A stretch of DNA of 56,642 nucleotides. It comes from a bacterium HR19 (lineage in GTDB: Bacteria; Calescibacteriota; Calescibacteriia; Calescibacteriales; Calescibacteriaceae). The notes beneath the pieces were generated by a model. It was not told the DNA's origin, ran no database searches, and saw only the letters and a list, made by a program, of their open reading frames with translations. This document shows positions 23,308 through 35,887 of this stretch, piece after piece. Within the stretch, counting starts at the first letter, position 1, and each line of letters opens with the position of its first letter. Made by a program: the position numbers and the translations under genes. The DNA lies in contig BEHV01000012.1 of assembly GCA_002898315.1 (NCBI GenBank), positions 1-56,642 on the forward strand, in the 5' to 3' direction.

Positions 23308-25032
23308 TCAATCCCTCAACCTCAGAAGAAAAACTCTATCTTCAAGCCTATACCTTTCTTTCAGAATAATCTTACCTGTTGCATCTTCAATCACTTCTAA
23401 ATCAATCTCTGTTATGCTACTTGGAAACATAAAATCTTCAAAAGTGTTTATCTTACCATCTTTCATTATACCGCTCGGGAAAAGTTTCTTTGAAAACAAA
23501 CGATTATCTGTTTTCACTTTGACCGTAATTGAACTTCTTTCAGCAGGAAATTTGAAGGAGTTTTTCATGTGTGGAAGATTTCCTTCAAAATCAAAATACT
23601 TTGAAGGAGATGAGAGGTAATCAATGTCAAGAATAAAAACCTTCCCGGAGAAAACTTTAAAATCAAGAAAGTTGAGTGGTAAAATGAGAAGAATAAACAA
23701 AGCTGCGAGCAAAGGGGCGAGGAAAACATTCTTTTTCCTTTTTGTTTGTTCCAAAAGATGTGTCTCATTTCTTATAACCGGGCGCCTTTTCCCCTCCGCT
23801 CTTTTTTCAGTCCAATCGTACCCCAACCTGAAATAACACAAAGAACATCCTATGAGCTTTACCTTCTTTGTCTTATCATCTATCATCTTCGGATTAACTT
23901 CACCTATGCACTGGACCAGAATATCTGCTTTCTCATCTGAACCAGAAAGAACACATTTTATCGTAATTTCATCTTTTTCTGATTTATATGAATAAAAAGG
24001 GAAGATAACGGCAGATGACTCACAAGAGCCAAAACATATACCGCAACCTACACAATCTGATTGGATTACCCGCGCTTTTCTCTTCCCATGAAGGTTCAAA
24101 ATTTCTATTGCATTGTAAGGACAATCCATAAAGCACTGCATACATCCGTTGCATTTTTCAAGGTCTATAACCGCTTTGTTCCTGAACTTAAATAAAAAAG
24201 GTAGAGTTAAAGTGATGGCAAACACAAAAAGAAAAAGGAAAGCCGAAATTTTTCCATATCGCACAAAAACAAGATAAGGAAATGAATAAAGAAAATCAGG
24301 AGTTATTTTATCAGGGAAAATAATTTCTCTCGCATCGTTGCCAAGCAGTGGCTGAAAGAGCAAAGATACAAGAAAAAGCAAAAGCAAAGCAGCAGAAGAA
24401 AGCATAAAGTTTGGAAGTAAAACCGGCTTTTTGAGCTTCATAACGTGCAATCCCAGAAAAGCGAGAAAAACCAGAGAGAGAAAAACATGGAAAATAAGAC
24501 ATATTCTGAAAATTCCAGAAAGCATTCTAATGTCAGAGATGAAAAAAGTTCTTTCCAGATTATCTGAAAATCCAACTGATGTGAGAAATTTCACAAGTCC
24601 TATTCCAATAACCTTGGCTGAGTCATCCCATACCAGGAGAAAACCTGTCATCCCTTCAATGATGATAAGTAAAACAAGAAGAAAGCCGAAAATATAAGTT
24701 TTCTTCTGCCTGAATTTTCCCGAGAAAAACGTTTCAAGGAAATGAAGTACAGAGAAAATCAAGAGCGCATCAGAAGAATATCTGTGAATAGCACGAGTGA
24801 AATTCCAGAATTTGCTCTGAGAGATAAACTTTACCGATCCATAAGATTTATCGGGAGAGACATCGTAAGCAAAAAGAAGGGGTATTCCAGACAATGCGCA
24901 TACGATAAAAGATAAAATCGCAAGAGCACCAAAGTTCCTGAAAATATTCAGATTCCTCGGCAGAAAAGAAGAGATATATAAAACAAATCTCCAGAACCTG
25001 CTGGTGTAAAATTTATTTTTTTGACTATCCAT
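23308..25032 (-). CDS. cytochrome b / 2x[4Fe-4S] ferredoxin fusion, membrane electron-transfer protein
   Basis: 574 aa. Residues 1-200 match the cytochrome b N-terminal four-helix core: two His pairs each 14 apart (AIHRYSS...LHF and IFHVFLS...GLH) would bind two b hemes. More membrane segments follow to about residue 280. Then come two CxxCxxCxxxCP clusters (CNGCMQCFMDCP and CVGCGICFGSCES), an additional Cys region with QCIGEVNP and GCSLCYFRLG, another membrane segment and a C-terminal beta-rich extracytoplasmic domain. It starts 4 bp after the sco gene and belongs to the oxidase operon. A quinol dehydrogenase or electron-bifurcation role is inferred; the combination is unusual. Confidence 0.78.
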   Translation of the reverse strand: MDSQKNKFYTSRFWRFVLYISSFLPRNLNIFRNFGALAILSFIVCALSGIPLLFAYDVSPDKSYGSVKFISQSKFWNFTRAIHRYSSDALLIFSVLHFLETFFSGKFRQKKTYIFGFLLVLLIIIEGMTGFLLVWDDSAKVIGIGLVKFLTSVGFSDNLERTFFISDIRMLSGIFRICLIFHVFLSLVFLAFLGLHVMKLKKPVLLPNFMLSSAALLLLFLVSLLFQPLLGNDAREIIFPDKITPDFLYSFPYLVFVRYGKISAFLFLFVFAITLTLPFLFKFRNKAVIDLEKCNGCMQCFMDCPYNAIEILNLHGKRKARVIQSDCVGCGICFGSCESSAVIFPFYSYKSEKDEITIKCVLSGSDEKADILVQCIGEVNPKMIDDKTKKVKLIGCSLCYFRLGYDWTEKRAEGKRRPVIRNETHLLEQTKRKKNVFLAPLLAALFILLILPLNFLDFKVFSGKVFILDIDYLSSPSKYFDFEGNLPHMKNSFKFPAERSSITVKVKTDNRLFSKKLFPSGIMKDGKINTFEDFMFPSSITEIDLEVIEDATGKIILKERYRLEDRVFLLRLRD

Positions 25033-25036
25033 AGCG

Positions 25037-25732
25037 TCAGAAGAGAAATTTTCTGAAAATGAGTACGAAAGTTATGATGAAAGCGAAAAAACCTGCGGTG
25101 TGATATACTATTCGCATATCAAACTCATATCTTCCAGTTATTGGATTGAAGCGATAGCAGAAAGATATAAGCTTTGAGAATATGCCGAAAACCTCTCCCT
25201 TCCCCGCTCTTTCAATTGCTATTTTCAAACTTTTCTCGTCAATTTTATCTGCTCCGTTGAGGAAGCTTGATATTTTTCCGTCAGGAGTTATGATATAAAA
25301 TACATTTGGATGTGCTATATCATCATCTGAAAATTCTATGTTAAAATCAAGTGAGGAAAGCAGCTTTTGAATGTCTTCTTTTTTTGCGGAGACAACATTC
25401 CAGTTTGAACCATCTATATCCCACCTTTGAGCAAAACCTTCAAGGTCTTCAACAGTATCTCTGTGGTCAAAAGAAAAAGAAATTATTTTATACTTTTCTC
25501 CGAGACCACCTATTTTTTTCACCGCCTCTTTTATGTTGAAGGTTATTATTGAGCAGAATTTCGGGCAACTCGTGTATATAGGAGATAGAATGAGAACTTT
25601 TCCCTCTGAAAAATCCATAATTTTGAATTCCCTCCCTTTGAAATCAAAAACATATATGTCAGATATACTTTTGCCTATTACATCGGGTTTCGGAGGGGAG
25701 AGTAAAGACAAAACTATAAGGACAACAATCAT
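25037..25732 (-). CDS. Sco1/SenC-family copper chaperone
   Basis: About 231 aa, thioredoxin fold anchored by an N-terminal hydrophobic segment and a second C-terminal membrane helix. The copper site TSCPKFC and the distal His in DDIAHPNVF are intact. Sco proteins deliver copper to, or reduce, the CuA site of oxidase subunit II, which is encoded just upstream in the same operon. The ATG at 25732 is chosen over TTG two codons earlier because TAAATT lies 7 nt before it. A 65-bp gap from subunit I could hold a secondary promoter. Confidence 0.88.
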   Translation of the reverse strand: MIVVLIVLSLLSPPKPDVIGKSISDIYVFDFKGREFKIMDFSEGKVLILSPIYTSCPKFCSIITFNIKEAVKKIGGLGEKYKIISFSFDHRDTVEDLEGFAQRWDIDGSNWNVVSAKKEDIQKLLSSLDFNIEFSDDDIAHPNVFYIITPDGKISSFLNGADKIDEKSLKIAIERAGKGEVFGIFSKLISFCYRFNPITGRYEFDMRIVYHTAGFFAFIITFVLIFRKFLF

Positions 25733-25797
25733 ATTCAAAAATTTAGTTTTTCAGCCCCCTTCCGCGCAAAAATGTAAATCTTTCGTTATCGCACACT

Positions 25798-27471
25798 TTA
25801 TTTCACGTACCATGTAGCAGAGAGCCACTTCCAGTTGAGGAAAAAATAAGTCATGAACCATACGAAAAAGATAAAGATTAAAGTTAGTGTTCCGGGACAC
25901 AATATAGAAGAGTGAGAAGGATTTTTCTTTTCTTCTTGAGGAGGGAGAACGATGGGAATCTGCATATCTTCTGGTCCCTTCAGCTTAGGACCGAAAAACA
26001 CAGATAGAACAACTATGAGTATCCAGAGAAGTGCTCCGAGAACCGCCGATACTCCACCTATCACAAAGAGTGTCCAGAAGAACCACATAGCCGGGTTGAA
26101 CTCGTGTTTGAAAGGTGCGTTTGAAAATAAAATATCGTAGTGTCTCCTCGGAACTCCAAGGTATCCCAGAGCGAGCATAGATATTGCAAGAATTGCTATA
26201 CCAAGTCCAAATAGCCATGGCTGAACCTTAGCAAGAGAATAAAGAACAATCTTTCTCCTGAAAATAAGTGGTATGAGGTAATATGTCGCTCCCATGAAGG
26301 CGAGTGTTGTTCCTATGACCACAGTTCCTTTGAAGTGCCCCGGCACAGCGAGGGTGTTGTGATGGATTATATTTGTTTGTTCTTTTCCTATCATAACTCC
26401 TGTCACTCCGCCGATGAACCCGAAACCAACAAGAGATATGAACATAGCAGAAAAAGCTGGATTTCCCCATGGCGCTTTTGCGAGCCAAGCAAAAATCCCT
26501 CTATACCCTCTTTTTCTCTGTGCTAACTCAACACTTGCCGGAATAGCATAAGCGTGAATCATAGACCCTAAGACAGCAAGATACATAGCATAAGATGTGT
26601 TGAAGACCTTCCATGCCGGAGAGACGGCAGGGTCAACAAGGAGATGATGAGCAGACGCCAGATTTATAAAAAATATGTACAGCAGGAAGGCGAGGCGTGA
26701 TATTTTCTCGCTTGGAGTTATTCCCCCAACAGAAAGATATGATATAAGATACCATGCAGATATCATTGCTGCAAGGTTTATCTGCTGAGCAGGATGCCCA
26801 ACTCCCCAAAATATTATTCTGTAATTTTCAGGGTCAACTTTATCTATAATACCGAGCGACCAGAGAAAAGTGGGGATAAAAATTATTGCTCCAGAAACCA
26901 AGGTGACAACTGCTATTATTGCTGCTGTAAGAAGTCCAAATGTAAATAGCGGCAGAGATCTTTCCCATTTTCCCTCTCGTTTTGCGACGACCAGATTAGC
27001 AAAGAACAGTATAACTCCAAGAAGTGCTCCAATAGCAAAGAGAAGGACACCAAGATAGTAAAGCCAGTGAGCTTTAAGAGGAGGATAAGATGTAAAAAGG
27101 ACATCTGCTTTTCCTTGTAAGATGGTGTAGTTTATCAGCAGTGCTCCGCCGAGCATAAGGAAGAATGCAAGCCAGCCCAATGGAGGAGAGGAAAATCTGG
27201 AGTTCAAAACAACCGTTGAACCGAAGTACAGTCCCGCGATTTCAAAAAATATTATCCAGAATAAAAGCGCATTCCAGCCGTGAAGAGTCAAAAACCTGTA
27301 ATAAAGATGTGGTGGAAGAAGATGGATTGTTGGGTGCCGAGTCAGAACTAAAAAGAAAGCGGCAATTATCGCTACAAGAAAGAAGATAACAGCAAAAACA
27401 GCGTTAACTTTTATAAGTGCCTCCCCTCTTTTATCTACTTCAAAACCCGTTATATCACACTTTCTAAACAT
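25798..27471 (-). CDS. heme-copper oxidoreductase subunit I, B-family-like, lacking active-site Tyr
   Basis: 557 aa with about 13-14 membrane segments. Ligands seen: H64 (LTLHGW, low-spin heme), H226 (GHPAQQ, CuB), H275-H276 (SAHHLL, CuB) and H379 (VPGHF, high-spin heme). Two key residues differ from O2-reducing B-family enzymes: the cross-linked Tyr four residues after the CuB His is Gln230, and the second low-spin-heme His of the HFH motif is Lys381 (HFK). Loss of the Tyr is known in nitric oxide reductase branches of this superfamily, so NO reduction is a reasonable alternative to O2 reduction. A strong GGGAGGAGGTG Shine-Dalgarno precedes the ATG. Encoded with subunit II, a small subunit and Sco. 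Confidence 0.85.
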   Translation of the reverse strand: MFRKCDITGFEVDKRGEALIKVNAVFAVIFFLVAIIAAFFLVLTRHPTIHLLPPHLYYRFLTLHGWNALLFWIIFFEIAGLYFGSTVVLNSRFSSPPLGWLAFFLMLGGALLINYTILQGKADVLFTSYPPLKAHWLYYLGVLLFAIGALLGVILFFANLVVAKREGKWERSLPLFTFGLLTAAIIAVVTLVSGAIIFIPTFLWSLGIIDKVDPENYRIIFWGVGHPAQQINLAAMISAWYLISYLSVGGITPSEKISRLAFLLYIFFINLASAHHLLVDPAVSPAWKVFNTSYAMYLAVLGSMIHAYAIPASVELAQRKRGYRGIFAWLAKAPWGNPAFSAMFISLVGFGFIGGVTGVMIGKEQTNIIHHNTLAVPGHFKGTVVIGTTLAFMGATYYLIPLIFRRKIVLYSLAKVQPWLFGLGIAILAISMLALGYLGVPRRHYDILFSNAPFKHEFNPAMWFFWTLFVIGGVSAVLGALLWILIVVLSVFFGPKLKGPEDMQIPIVLPPQEEKKNPSHSSILCPGTLTLIFIFFVWFMTYFFLNWKWLSATWYVK

Positions 27472-27493: not shown

Positions 27494-28126
27494 TTATTCC
27501 GGGTTTATTTTCCCGGCTTGGTTGAAATATCCTTTTTCTGCAAAATCATTTTTCTCGGTTTTTATTTCGCCGAGGTATTTTTCGGGTGTTTCTCCCTCAG
27601 CTATAACTATTACTTTTCCTATCATAAGGTGGTGTCCTATTCCGCAGAACTCGTTGCAGATGATGGAATATTCTCCTTCTTTTGTTGGTTTGAATTTCAG
27701 CACATGGTCATAGCCAGGGATTACCTGAAAATTCATGTTCACAGGTTGAAGAGAAAATCCGTGTTGGAGGTCAAGAGAAGATATGTGGAATGTGTACCAT
27801 TTATCTTTTTCGAGGACTAAAATAGGGCTCCACGACCACATTCTTGCAAGGAGTATAACATCTGATTCTGGCGGTGGCTTTACAACGGGGGTGCCATTTT
27901 TCTCACCTATTTTGTATTTTTCTACGAAGGAATTGTAGAGCTGGAAGAATTCCATTGGATTTACCTTGTAGGAGACGAAGGAAGTATTTTGTTTTCCGAA
28001 GATGTGCCATCCTATCATCCAGAAGAACATAAAGAGGCATGAGAGTAGAGCGATATATACCCAGGTTTTTTCGTCTTTTGATGGTTTTTCTTTGTCCCAG
28101 TTTTCAGGTGGTGGCAGGAGAGCCAT
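27494..28126 (-). CDS. cytochrome c oxidase-type subunit II with CuA site
   Basis: 210 aa. One N-terminal membrane helix (about residues 22-47) precedes a cupredoxin domain. The CuA ligands are complete: His in LQHGF and the cluster CNEFCGIGHHLM (C-x3-C-x3-H-x2-M). It would accept electrons from a cytochrome c or other periplasmic donor and pass them to subunit I. A single N-terminal helix fits B-family (ba3-like) architecture. It has a GGGAGGTG Shine-Dalgarno, sits 7 bp after the small subunit and 22 bp before subunit I. Presence of CuA argues against a quinol oxidase and against classical cNOR. Confidence 0.92.
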   Translation of the reverse strand: MALLPPPENWDKEKPSKDEKTWVYIALLSCLFMFFWMIGWHIFGKQNTSFVSYKVNPMEFFQLYNSFVEKYKIGEKNGTPVVKPPPESDVILLARMWSWSPILVLEKDKWYTFHISSLDLQHGFSLQPVNMNFQVIPGYDHVLKFKPTKEGEYSIICNEFCGIGHHLMIGKVIVIAEGETPEKYLGEIKTEKNDFAEKGYFNQAGKINPE

Positions 28127-31486: not shown

Positions 31487-34400
31487 TTACTTCAAGCTTT
31501 TTGATAGATTAATCGTTATTTTTTTACCTCTGATGAGTAGGAATATTCCTACAATTGCGGTTAAGATTAGCTGATTTAATATGCCTTCCGGTTCATAACC
31601 GGAGGAACACGAACAAGCCCTTTCTCTGCCATATCCTTCAAGTTTAATTCCAATTCCTCCAAAGTTTGTCAAAAACCTTATTGAACCTTCTTTTTTGCCT
31701 CCAGAAGTTGGCGAGAATGAAACCTTTACTATTCTTGAATCTCCAGGTGGCATAGTGAAAGGAGTTGTTGGAATCTCTGCCTTGAAATCTTTACTATCCA
31801 AGCTAATTTCATAAATTATAACAAACCAGTTCCCCGAATTACTCACCTTTAATGGAAATTCTTTTGTCTTTCCTACGATAACTGTTCCAAAATTTACTGT
31901 GGTAGGGTCAAAATAGAGAGAAGATGTGAGCCCTTCTCCTTGAAGTGAAACATAAGCCTCTCCATAAGAAGTTTTTATGATAGCTTTACCCGTATGTGCA
32001 CCTTGTTTTATCGGTGAAAAACTTATGTTAATCGTTTCAGATTCCCCTTCATCAATGGTAATAGGTAAAGAGATTTCATCTGAGAATTTGAAACCCTCAC
32101 CTTCAATACCCATCCCTGATACCTCTAATGGATAGGTTCCTGCGTTTACTATTGAAAAGCTCAAATTCTTCTGTGAGCCTGATACAACTTCTCCAAAGTC
32201 CAATATTGATGGATTTACGAGTAAGAATGGAGAAACCCCTTGTCCAGATAGTTTAACTTCACCTGAACCATAATTTGTTTTTACCGACACACTCCCTGTG
32301 GATAAACCAACTGCCTGGGGAGAAAATCCAACTTCCACTTTTGCTGATTCACCTGGGTTGAGCAAAAAAACATCTGTGGAACGCAGTTCAAAACCTGTTC
32401 CAGATATTTCTAACGATTCAATTTTTAGAACTCCTGAACCTTTATTCTTGATATAAAATTCTTCTGTTTTTCTTGTCCCAATCCTTACTTTATCAAAGTT
32501 TAAAATCTCTGGTTCTAACCCAAGTTCAGGGAATTCTCCTTGACCTGAAAGTGATACCAGAACAACCGCTATGTCGGTTCTTACTATTATGTTTCCTGAT
32601 TTTTCACCCGGGGACTTAGGTTCAAAAGTTGCCTTTGCCTTTGTGTTTTCACCGGGGAGCAATTGAAATTTAGTCTGAGTTGTACTCACAGAAAAATCGG
32701 TTCCAGAAACTGCTATTTCAAGAATTGTAAGTTTAGATGTTCCTATATTTGAAATTTCAAATTCTAACTCTTTTGATTCTTGCCATCTAACACTCCCAAA
32801 ATTTAGAGTTTGGGGTGAGACAGCAACTAACGGGAAAAGTCCATTTGCTTCTAATGAAACAAAGCCAGAACCAGCATTTGAGGATATAACTACTGTTCCT
32901 GCTTTGACTCCGGGACTCAGTGGGGAGAATCTAACAGTGAGTGTAGATGATTGTCCTGATCCCAATATAAGAGGTAAGCTTGGGGGGGAAACTATAGAGA
33001 AACCTTCGCCTGATATACTCAGATTTGAAATTTCCAAGTTTGATTCTCCTGTGTTCCTTATGTTGAGTGTCATATCTTTTGATGTTCCTCTCTCAACTCC
33101 GCCGAAGTCAATTTCACTTGGGGTAATGCTCAAAACCGGAGCAAATCCTTGACCTGAAAGCAAAACAGACTTGGAACCGCCGTTTGATACAATTATTAAC
33201 TTGCCTGAAAGTGTTCCCCGAGATGTTGGCGAAAATCTTATAGATAGAGAAACTGATGATGCAGGATTTAGGAATATAGGTAAAGAAGGAGGATTTACCA
33301 AAGAAAAGCCGGTACCGGATATTAAAATTTCGTCCACCCGAAGTTGAGCTTCTCCGATATTACTTAAGCTAACCTGCATGTCGCGTGAGCTTCCAACATC
33401 AACTCCACCAAAGTCCAAACTTGTAGGACTTACCGATAGTAAAGGAGCTATGCCTCTACCCGAAAGTAAAACATTGGTATTTCCTCCATTTGTTTCTATT
33501 GCTATACTTCCCTCATAGTTCGTAAGTGAAGAGGGATAGAATCTGACAGCAATTTCTGCATAGGTTCCTGGACTGACATAGATTGGCAAACTCGGCGGAT
33601 TGACAAAGCTAAAAGCTTCTCCTAAAATCAACAAGTTTGAAACTCTTAAAGTACCAGGTCCAGAGTTATTTATACGAAAAACTCTATCAGCATAAGTATT
33701 GACAGGAACATTGCCAAAAGTTATGGATGTAGGGGAAACTGAAAATGAAGGTATGGCAGTTCCATTCCCGTAAAGCGGAATATTTACTGAACCCCCATCT
33801 GATGAAATAAAAACATTTCCTGAGATTGACCCTATTACTTCAGGAGAAAATCTTATATAAATTGTCTGTGATTTCCCAGGTTCAATAGAAAAAGGTAGAG
33901 GTGGAACCCCTATGGTTCTGAACGGTCCTCCTGTTGGCAAAATGATTATATCTCTAACTACCATAAAAGCTTGACCTGTATTTTGAATGTCTATGGGAAG
34001 TTCTTTATATTCACCTACTCTCACATCTCCAAAATTTAAAGAAGTAGGAGAAACCGAGATCTGGGGTTGTACGAATGTGAATATCATAAGACCACCGAAG
34101 CGGTTTGCTGTGAACACTACTCCATCTACCACCATTATCTCGGTGGAGTCAGAAGAAGTAATGAAATAACTCATTCCCTTAGGGAAAGCAGGATTTGAAA
34201 CATCTATTAAAGTTACGCCTCCTTGGAAATCTGCAACAAATGCTATCCCGCCTTTCACCCAGACATCGAAAGCGCTAGTTGTCTTAAATGTAGAAACTAA
34301 TGAAGGGGAACCCGGATTTGTGACATCTATTATTCTTATACCTGCTCCTGCATCAGCAACATAAGCAGTATTCCCAGAAACGAAAACATCTATAGCATTT

Positions 34401-35887
34401 GATGTTGCAATACGAGTTACTGCAACGGGGTTTGAAGGGTTGGTAACATCTATTATCATCAGCCCCTGCCCCCCATCTGCAACATAAGCTGTGTTTCCCT
34501 GAACATAAACACCACGAGCAAATCCTGGGGTATCAATCCATCCTAAAGAGACAGGATTATTATAGTTGGATGCATCTATTATGAACAACCCCAAATTACC
34601 AGCAGCGAAAAAAGCCAAAGTAGCATCTTTCACGAATACATCCCATCCATCACCTCCGGTAGTCCAGGGCATAAAGAAAGAAACCTCGGTTGGAGAATTC
34701 GGATTTGTAACATCTAGTATTCTTAATCCTCCTTCTGCTCCTGATGCAGCATAAACTATTCTCGCTCCAGATGGATGGTCTACCACAACAAGTCCCCTTG
34801 TATCCCCAGGGGTATCATAGTATGTTATCTCATAAGGAAATGATAAGTCGGTTATGTTTATTATTCTTACTCCGCCACGCCAATCGCCTACAAAAGCTAA
34901 GTTCAGGTCCTTTCTCACATAAACTCCCCACGAATCGCCAGGAGCAAACCATATATCCATCATAGAAGGGGAGCACGGATTTGATATATCAAATGTTGCA
35001 AACCTTTGCCAATCCCAGACAAAATAAAGAATGTTTTGGTCCTCGGGAATAAATATTCCGTGTCCTTCAACTTGGGGTTCTGTTATTTCATTGCACATGA
35101 CAGGATTTGAGATACCTGCCGAAAAATCTATAATGTGAACACCTCCTGATATATACTTTCCACCTGAATCCCACCTCATATATTCTGAATAGAAAACATA
35201 GTTCCCTTTAACAGCAAGGTATGTGTAATCGTCAGTTTGGTTAAAAGTTACTTGAACAGTTGTTATCAAATTTGGAAATGCTGGATTTGAGACATCTATA
35301 ACTCGTAAATAAGCATAGATTCCCGAAGAATCTGCAACATACGCTGTTTGTCCTTGAACATAGACATCAAGATAATCAGGAGAAGGTGTTGCAAAACTTG
35401 TAATTTCTGTGGGATTTGTGGGGTCGGAAACATCTATTATACGTAGTCCGCCATTTCTATCTGCAACATACGCTATGTTATCTTTTACGAAGACATTCCA
35501 AGCAGAACCGGGGGTATCGAGCCATCCTAAAAACCTAGGTTGAAATGGATTAGAAAAATCTACAATATGGAGTCCCTGATTATCATCTGCTATGTAGGCT
35601 ATGGTGCCTTTTATGAAAATTCCCCGAGCAGGCGCCGGTGTGATGTAAAAAGAAATTTCTCTTGGGTATTTTGGGTCTGATACATCAACAATTCTCAAAC
35701 CAGAATCATCGCAAACCACAAGAGCTATAGAACCTGATGCTTTTACATCACGGCAGAACTTCGGCATACCGATAACTCCCAAAAATTTTATGTCATAGGG
35801 GTTTGAGACATCAAAAGTTCTGAGACCGAAACCAGAGGCAACATACGCTACTTTTCTCTGGGTATCAACATATGTTTTCCATCGCAC
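31487..35887 (-). CDS. giant surface protein: LVIVD beta-propeller repeats, eight ASH/choice-of-anchor-D domains, C-terminal sorting-like tail
   Basis: 1466 aa in this frame. About residues 1-625 are LVIVD repeats (GLRIIDVSDP... followed by AYVAD), forming one or two beta propellers. About residues 630-1420 hold eight immunoglobulin-like ASH/choice-of-anchor-D domains, each opening with a variant of VSPTSLNFGDV. The C-terminus is CSCSS, a short linker, a hydrophobic helix and RGKK, resembling MYXO-CTERM/Synerg-CTERM-type sorting tails. The GTG start used here is not natural: a signal-peptide ORF in another frame (36101-35865) overlaps it. The intact product would be about 1540 aa, exported and displayed on the cell surface. 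Role unknown; adhesion or matrix binding is inferred. Confidence 0.8.
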   Translation of the reverse strand: MRWKTYVDTQRKVAYVASGFGLRTFDVSNPYDIKFLGVIGMPKFCRDVKASGSIALVVCDDSGLRIVDVSDPKYPREISFYITPAPARGIFIKGTIAYIADDNQGLHIVDFSNPFQPRFLGWLDTPGSAWNVFVKDNIAYVADRNGGLRIIDVSDPTNPTEITSFATPSPDYLDVYVQGQTAYVADSSGIYAYLRVIDVSNPAFPNLITTVQVTFNQTDDYTYLAVKGNYVFYSEYMRWDSGGKYISGGVHIIDFSAGISNPVMCNEITEPQVEGHGIFIPEDQNILYFVWDWQRFATFDISNPCSPSMMDIWFAPGDSWGVYVRKDLNLAFVGDWRGGVRIINITDLSFPYEITYYDTPGDTRGLVVVDHPSGARIVYAASGAEGGLRILDVTNPNSPTEVSFFMPWTTGGDGWDVFVKDATLAFFAAGNLGLFIIDASNYNNPVSLGWIDTPGFARGVYVQGNTAYVADGGQGLMIIDVTNPSNPVAVTRIATSNAIDVFVSGNTAYVADAGAGIRIIDVTNPGSPSLVSTFKTTSAFDVWVKGGIAFVADFQGGVTLIDVSNPAFPKGMSYFITSSDSTEIMVVDGVVFTANRFGGLMIFTFVQPQISVSPTSLNFGDVRVGEYKELPIDIQNTGQAFMVVRDIIILPTGGPFRTIGVPPLPFSIEPGKSQTIYIRFSPEVIGSISGNVFISSDGGSVNIPLYGNGTAIPSFSVSPTSITFGNVPVNTYADRVFRINNSGPGTLRVSNLLILGEAFSFVNPPSLPIYVSPGTYAEIAVRFYPSSLTNYEGSIAIETNGGNTNVLLSGRGIAPLLSVSPTSLDFGGVDVGSSRDMQVSLSNIGEAQLRVDEILISGTGFSLVNPPSLPIFLNPASSVSLSIRFSPTSRGTLSGKLIIVSNGGSKSVLLSGQGFAPVLSITPSEIDFGGVERGTSKDMTLNIRNTGESNLEISNLSISGEGFSIVSPPSLPLILGSGQSSTLTVRFSPLSPGVKAGTVVISSNAGSGFVSLEANGLFPLVAVSPQTLNFGSVRWQESKELEFEISNIGTSKLTILEIAVSGTDFSVSTTQTKFQLLPGENTKAKATFEPKSPGEKSGNIIVRTDIAVVLVSLSGQGEFPELGLEPEILNFDKVRIGTRKTEEFYIKNKGSGVLKIESLEISGTGFELRSTDVFLLNPGESAKVEVGFSPQAVGLSTGSVSVKTNYGSGEVKLSGQGVSPFLLVNPSILDFGEVVSGSQKNLSFSIVNAGTYPLEVSGMGIEGEGFKFSDEISLPITIDEGESETINISFSPIKQGAHTGKAIIKTSYGEAYVSLQGEGLTSSLYFDPTTVNFGTVIVGKTKEFPLKVSNSGNWFVIIYEISLDSKDFKAEIPTTPFTMPPGDSRIVKVSFSPTSGGKKEGSIRFLTNFGGIGIKLEGYGRERACSCSSGYEPEGILNQLILTAIVGIFLLIRGKKITINLSKSLK

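Follow-up and report, generated by a model that had tools for sequence, protein, structure and literature searches.

A gene in the window (the whole stretch of 56,642 nucleotides analysed here, from bacterium HR19) encodes the subunit I of a heme-copper enzyme with unusual residues at two positions, the active-site Tyr and the second axial ligand of the low-spin haem. Bis-His ligation of that haem is one of the features that vary least across the heme-copper superfamily. The locus raises two questions, namely which gas the enzyme reduces and what holds its low-spin haem. An earlier note on this DNA had suggested either a CuA-linked NO reductase or an undescribed oxidase class.

Subunit I and its metal ligands

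The motifs of subunit I are H64, GH226-PAQQ230-IN, H275-H276 and GH379-F-K381, with H226-P-A-Q-Q230 encoded by codons 26796-26782 (Table 1). Its best sequence matches of solved structure are ba3 oxidases (180 bits), and alignment with the Thermus ba3 enzyme (1ehk family, 180 bits) placed Q230 on Tyr237 and K381 on His386, confirming what had been claimed for Gln230 and for the HFK motif with Lys381 (26331-26329). H64, H226, H275, H276 and H379, said to be in place, are all present and were found by alignment to be invariant among relatives. The canonical low-spin haem is bound by a His of helix II and the second His of HxH; here H64 is kept and the second His is Lys381.

Table 1. Features of the eNOR-type locus, in window coordinates
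Feature	Position	Strand	Basis or remark
eNOR-type heme-copper subunit I, 557 aa	25798..27471	-	PF00115, 229.5 bits; uninterrupted ORF
His64 codon, first low-spin haem ligand	27280..27282	-	translation and alignment
His226 codon, CuB ligand	26794..26796	-	translation and alignment
Gln230 codon, at the cross-linked Tyr237 position of ba3 oxidase; eNOR diagnostic	26782..26784	-	alignment
His275-His276 codons, CuB ligands	26644..26649	-	translation and alignment
Lys381 codon AAA, at the low-spin haem ligand His386 position of ba3	26329..26331	-	alignment
His379 codon, proximal ligand of high-spin haem	26335..26337	-	translation and alignment
CuA subunit II, 210 aa; H122/C157/C161/H165/M168 (H-CxxxC-H-M) conserved	27494..28126	-	directly upstream of subunit I
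Sco-type copper chaperone, CxxxC...H	25037..25738	-	downstream of subunit I
Di-haem cytochrome b, 2x[4Fe-4S] ferredoxin and four-Cys FlpD/MvhD-like fusion	23308..25032	-	domain matches

An AlphaFold model of the protein showed the oxidase fold (Z about 31-33 against oxidases, a ba3 match included), with a mean pLDDT of 79 that falls below 50 at residues 369-375 and with no readout of the Lys381 side-chain geometry. The T. thermophilus ba3 oxidase shares with the window enzyme its fold, CuB ligands, high-spin haem ligand and a CuA subunit, but it possesses Tyr237, Tyr244, Thr312 and His386. Alignment of the K-channel positions showed that Tyr244 is replaced by Val or Ile and Thr312 by His across the eNOR family. 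Of the other residues that bear on the single proton channel expected of an eNOR, the equivalents of Ser309 and Tyr248 are retained, and that of Thr315 is Ala in the clade that carries Lys381 (hereafter the Lys clade).

Gln230 and assignment to the eNOR family

O2 reductases need the active-site Tyr for O-O splitting. Where the B-family enzymes have this cross-linked Tyr, the window protein has Q230. Its relatives were sampled as 80 related loci from a one-genome-per-species collection, to which Bacteroidota-phylum genomes and same-phylum relatives were then added. QQIN was invariant across the 80 loci, and the Tyr position was occupied by Gln in all 96 eNOR-type sequences aligned, whereas Tyr was present in all 15 B-family oxidases obtained from the same searches.

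A Gln at the position of the cross-linked Tyr has been used to define eNOR, the residue there being Asn in sNOR and CuANOR (bNOR; Table A4), Asp in gNOR and Glu in cNOR/qNOR (PMC8756737). Like the window enzyme, bNOR and sNOR are CuA- or cupredoxin-linked NO reductases related to the B family, but their Asn is not found here, the residue being Q230. Subunit I groups as a B-family-related heme-copper protein, both by fold match and in a tree with a B-family outgroup, and a cupredoxin/CuA subunit II gene adjoins its own, as is also asked of an eNOR. As Gln230 is the published eNOR diagnostic, and with the genome context described below, the reading of the enzyme as a CuA-linked NO reductase is well supported, with characterised eNOR compared by its published description rather than by sequence. 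The Tyr-to-Gln replacement is already known, as is the little-studied family that it marks, which is counted as one of four biochemically characterised NO reductase families (PMC11388526). The window enzyme resembles eNOR in its Gln, its upstream cupredoxin subunit II, its conservation at family level and its denitrifier context. It departs from it in Lys381, which is found in the window's lineage and in Thermus plasmid copies, while the 74 other eNORs aligned all keep the second low-spin haem His.

Conservation of Lys381

Lys381 was found in 23 of the 24 sequences of one clade that includes the window; in the remaining sequence (locus L027) the codon reads AAN, which is Lys or Asn. Members of this clade are the window organism, locus L005, Kapabacteria and Bacteroidota (Chitinophagaceae, Saprospiraceae and others). 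It received a support of 99 in a 69-row tree and of 100/99 in a 51-row tree, both computed without column 381. None of the O2 reductases compared has the HxK swap. A genome of the same genus as the window organism (G002) encodes an eNOR with HFH whose identity to the window protein is only 57%, which makes it likely that the HFK enzyme has been exchanged horizontally. HFH was also found in eNORs from Bacteroidota-phylum genomes (L100-L113). A divergent eNOR branch among these (L107-L113) has lost the otherwise invariant Glu364, with Thr or Met instead.

A degenerate gene or a sequencing artefact at both unusual codons might be suspected in view of the origin of the window sequence from a MAG and the ambiguous third base at codon 381 of L027. 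However, over 20 further assemblies and complete Thermus plasmids show the same residues, L005 is a 97% identical copy with the same motif from another assembly, and the Lys codon alternates between AAA and AAG among clade members, a synonymous variation that points to selection on the Lys. Sequencing error at the Gln230 and Lys381 codons, of which the earlier note had warned, is ruled out on these grounds, and any artefactual or degenerate origin is exceedingly improbable. HFK is a conserved trait of this multi-phylum clade.

Recurrence in Thermus thermophilus plasmids

Plasmids of Thermus thermophilus encode an eNOR-type enzyme that likewise combines Gln with HFK and is 48% identical to the window protein. 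A full-length copy is present in ten plasmid records, and three loci were examined (pTF24b, TTHNAR1 plasmid 4 and pHB5018d). On each of these three plasmids it is the sole strong heme-copper match. An annotated nitrite reductase gene lies near it on two of the three (nirS by name in one), and in place of the adjoining Sco and cytochrome b fusion genes of the window an Rrf2 regulator stands beside it on all three.

The Thermus HFK copies branch apart from the main Lys clade. A tree constrained to keep every Lys sequence in one group is worse by 18.4 log-likelihood units (AU p = 0.013), so at least two H-to-K changes are indicated and the change is probably recurrent; the Thermus branch is long, which makes this evidence for two origins good but not conclusive. 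We hold it slightly better than an even chance that these enzymes represent a class of heme-copper NO reductases with a His/Lys electron-transfer haem that arose independently at least twice, once in Bacteroidota/Kapabacteria together with the candidate phylum of the window and once in Thermus. If true, such a class would be an exception to the rule that the low-spin haem is bis-His ligated throughout the superfamily. A conserved His-to-Lys change that recurs in NO reductases of denitrifiers would offer a natural test of how haem ligands affect electron transfer and NO chemistry, and the presence of a homologue near nirS on plasmids of a culturable species makes it directly testable. The eNOR family and its Gln were already known; what is added here is the conserved, and probably recurrent, change of a low-spin haem ligand.

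Candidate ligands of the low-spin haem

The earlier note had considered that the missing Tyr and His might be supplied from other positions. Column comparison of both Lys lineages with the other eNORs revealed no replacement His, Met or Cys in subunit I that is specific to the Lys lineages. H370 is restricted to the window and L005. Besides column 381, the two Lys lineages have in common residues at columns 250, 375, 419, 428, 435 and 454 that few other eNORs possess, and none of these offers a new metal ligand. Lys381 is therefore the best candidate for the second axial position. His/Lys haem ligation occurs in other proteins, such as the thiosulfate dehydrogenase TsdA (PMC6879331). The TsdA paper was the only one retrieved in a literature search for a Lys low-spin haem ligand in heme-copper enzymes, a search whose reach did not extend to the original eNOR description, which may mention HFK.

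The main rival to Lys ligation is the same eNOR with Lys381 off the iron, paired with a propionate or another charge and leaving the haem five-coordinate or water-bound. The Lys side chain is longer than that of His, the model is silent on its placement, and 375 Ala, 419 Trp and 435 Leu, which accompany Lys in both lineages, could mean that the pocket has been rebuilt. Yet the Lys is kept in two separate lineages and is never replaced by Arg, Gln or another non-ligand (the AAN codon of L027 notwithstanding), and a haem with only five ligands would probably carry electrons less well and might itself bind NO. We regard this arrangement as possible, at about one chance in four, and favour ligation by Lys381.

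Gene neighbourhood

The CuA subunit II and Sco genes reported earlier for this operon were both recovered (Table 1). Genes for subunit II, subunit I, Sco and the cytochrome b/Fe-S fusion cluster in nearly every locus of the Lys clade, as they do in many loci of the His clade. Almost every copy of the fusion protein has four His at haem-b positions, and every copy has eight ferredoxin Cys plus four further Cys. The FlpD match is significant solely in relatives, although the window copy retains the four Cys. The fusion is probably an electron-input module and a candidate dedicated donor to the eNOR. A gene for a Crp/FNR-type regulator lies upstream in 15 Bacteroidota loci. Several Bacteroidota subunit II proteins (L006, L024 and L027; about 305 aa) possess an additional C-terminal CxxCH cytochrome c domain, which is absent from subunit II of the window and of Kapabacteria.

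Elsewhere in the window (31487-35887, minus strand), a 1466-aa protein is encoded in which about eight HYDIN/ASPM-type Ig-like domains come after LVIVD propeller repeats.

Denitrification context and proposed mechanism

The host genome encodes NirS (426 bits) and NosZ (866 bits) as well as three molybdopterin oxidoreductases; a NirK-type domain was not found in the assembly, which is 82% complete. Among the 21 Lys-clade genomes, NosZ was identified in 19 (17 full, two split), NirK in ten and NirS in three, and each genome carries at least one of the three. Apart from the window enzyme, the host has a single full-length PF00115 protein, an A-family oxidase whose subunits II and III are encoded next to it. 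The remaining PF00115 matches are two short, weak ones, and no other NO reductase was recognisable in the assembly, whose completeness of 82% makes a missed second enzyme (cNOR or qNOR) possible. With NirS and NosZ present, no other NO reductase found and Gln at position 230, the enzyme very probably performs the NO-to-N2O step of a denitrifier. Of the two alternatives offered in the earlier note, NO reductase is the one that is favoured by these observations, while an undescribed class is not, eNOR having already been named and characterised.

If the enzyme were a B-family O2 reductase able to dispense with the cross-linked Tyr, this would account for the oxidase-like overall fold, the CuA subunit and the annotation of homologues as cytochrome oxidase. 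Such a function is improbable in view of the eNOR-diagnostic Gln230, the loss throughout the family of the ba3 K-channel residues Tyr244 and Thr312, the NirS/NosZ context and the A-family O2 reductase that the host already encodes.

On balance we consider it moderately probable, from sequence and genome context, that the window encodes a CuA-containing eNOR acting between NirS and NosZ, with the fusion protein as its quinol-side supply and a His64/Lys381 low-spin haem. Electrons would probably be drawn from the quinol pool through the cytochrome b/Fe-S fusion, directly or by way of a carrier, and would be received by the CuA of subunit II. They would then pass to the low-spin haem, whose second axial ligand is most likely the Lys381 amine instead of the usual second His, and on to the high-spin haem/CuB site. 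There, with Gln230 standing for Tyr, two NO would couple to N2O (2 NO + 2 e- + 2 H+ -> N2O + H2O).

Annotation of eNOR homologues

In databases, eNOR homologues are annotated as cytochrome oxidase, the T. thermophilus plasmid enzyme as a ba3 or cbb3 oxidase. Probable NO reductases are in this way labelled as O2-consuming oxidases, and a capacity for N2O production is hidden. A plasmid of Thermomicrobium roseum (L129) also encodes an eNOR-type subunit I, annotated as a cbb3-type oxidase, in which AHFH replaces GHFH.
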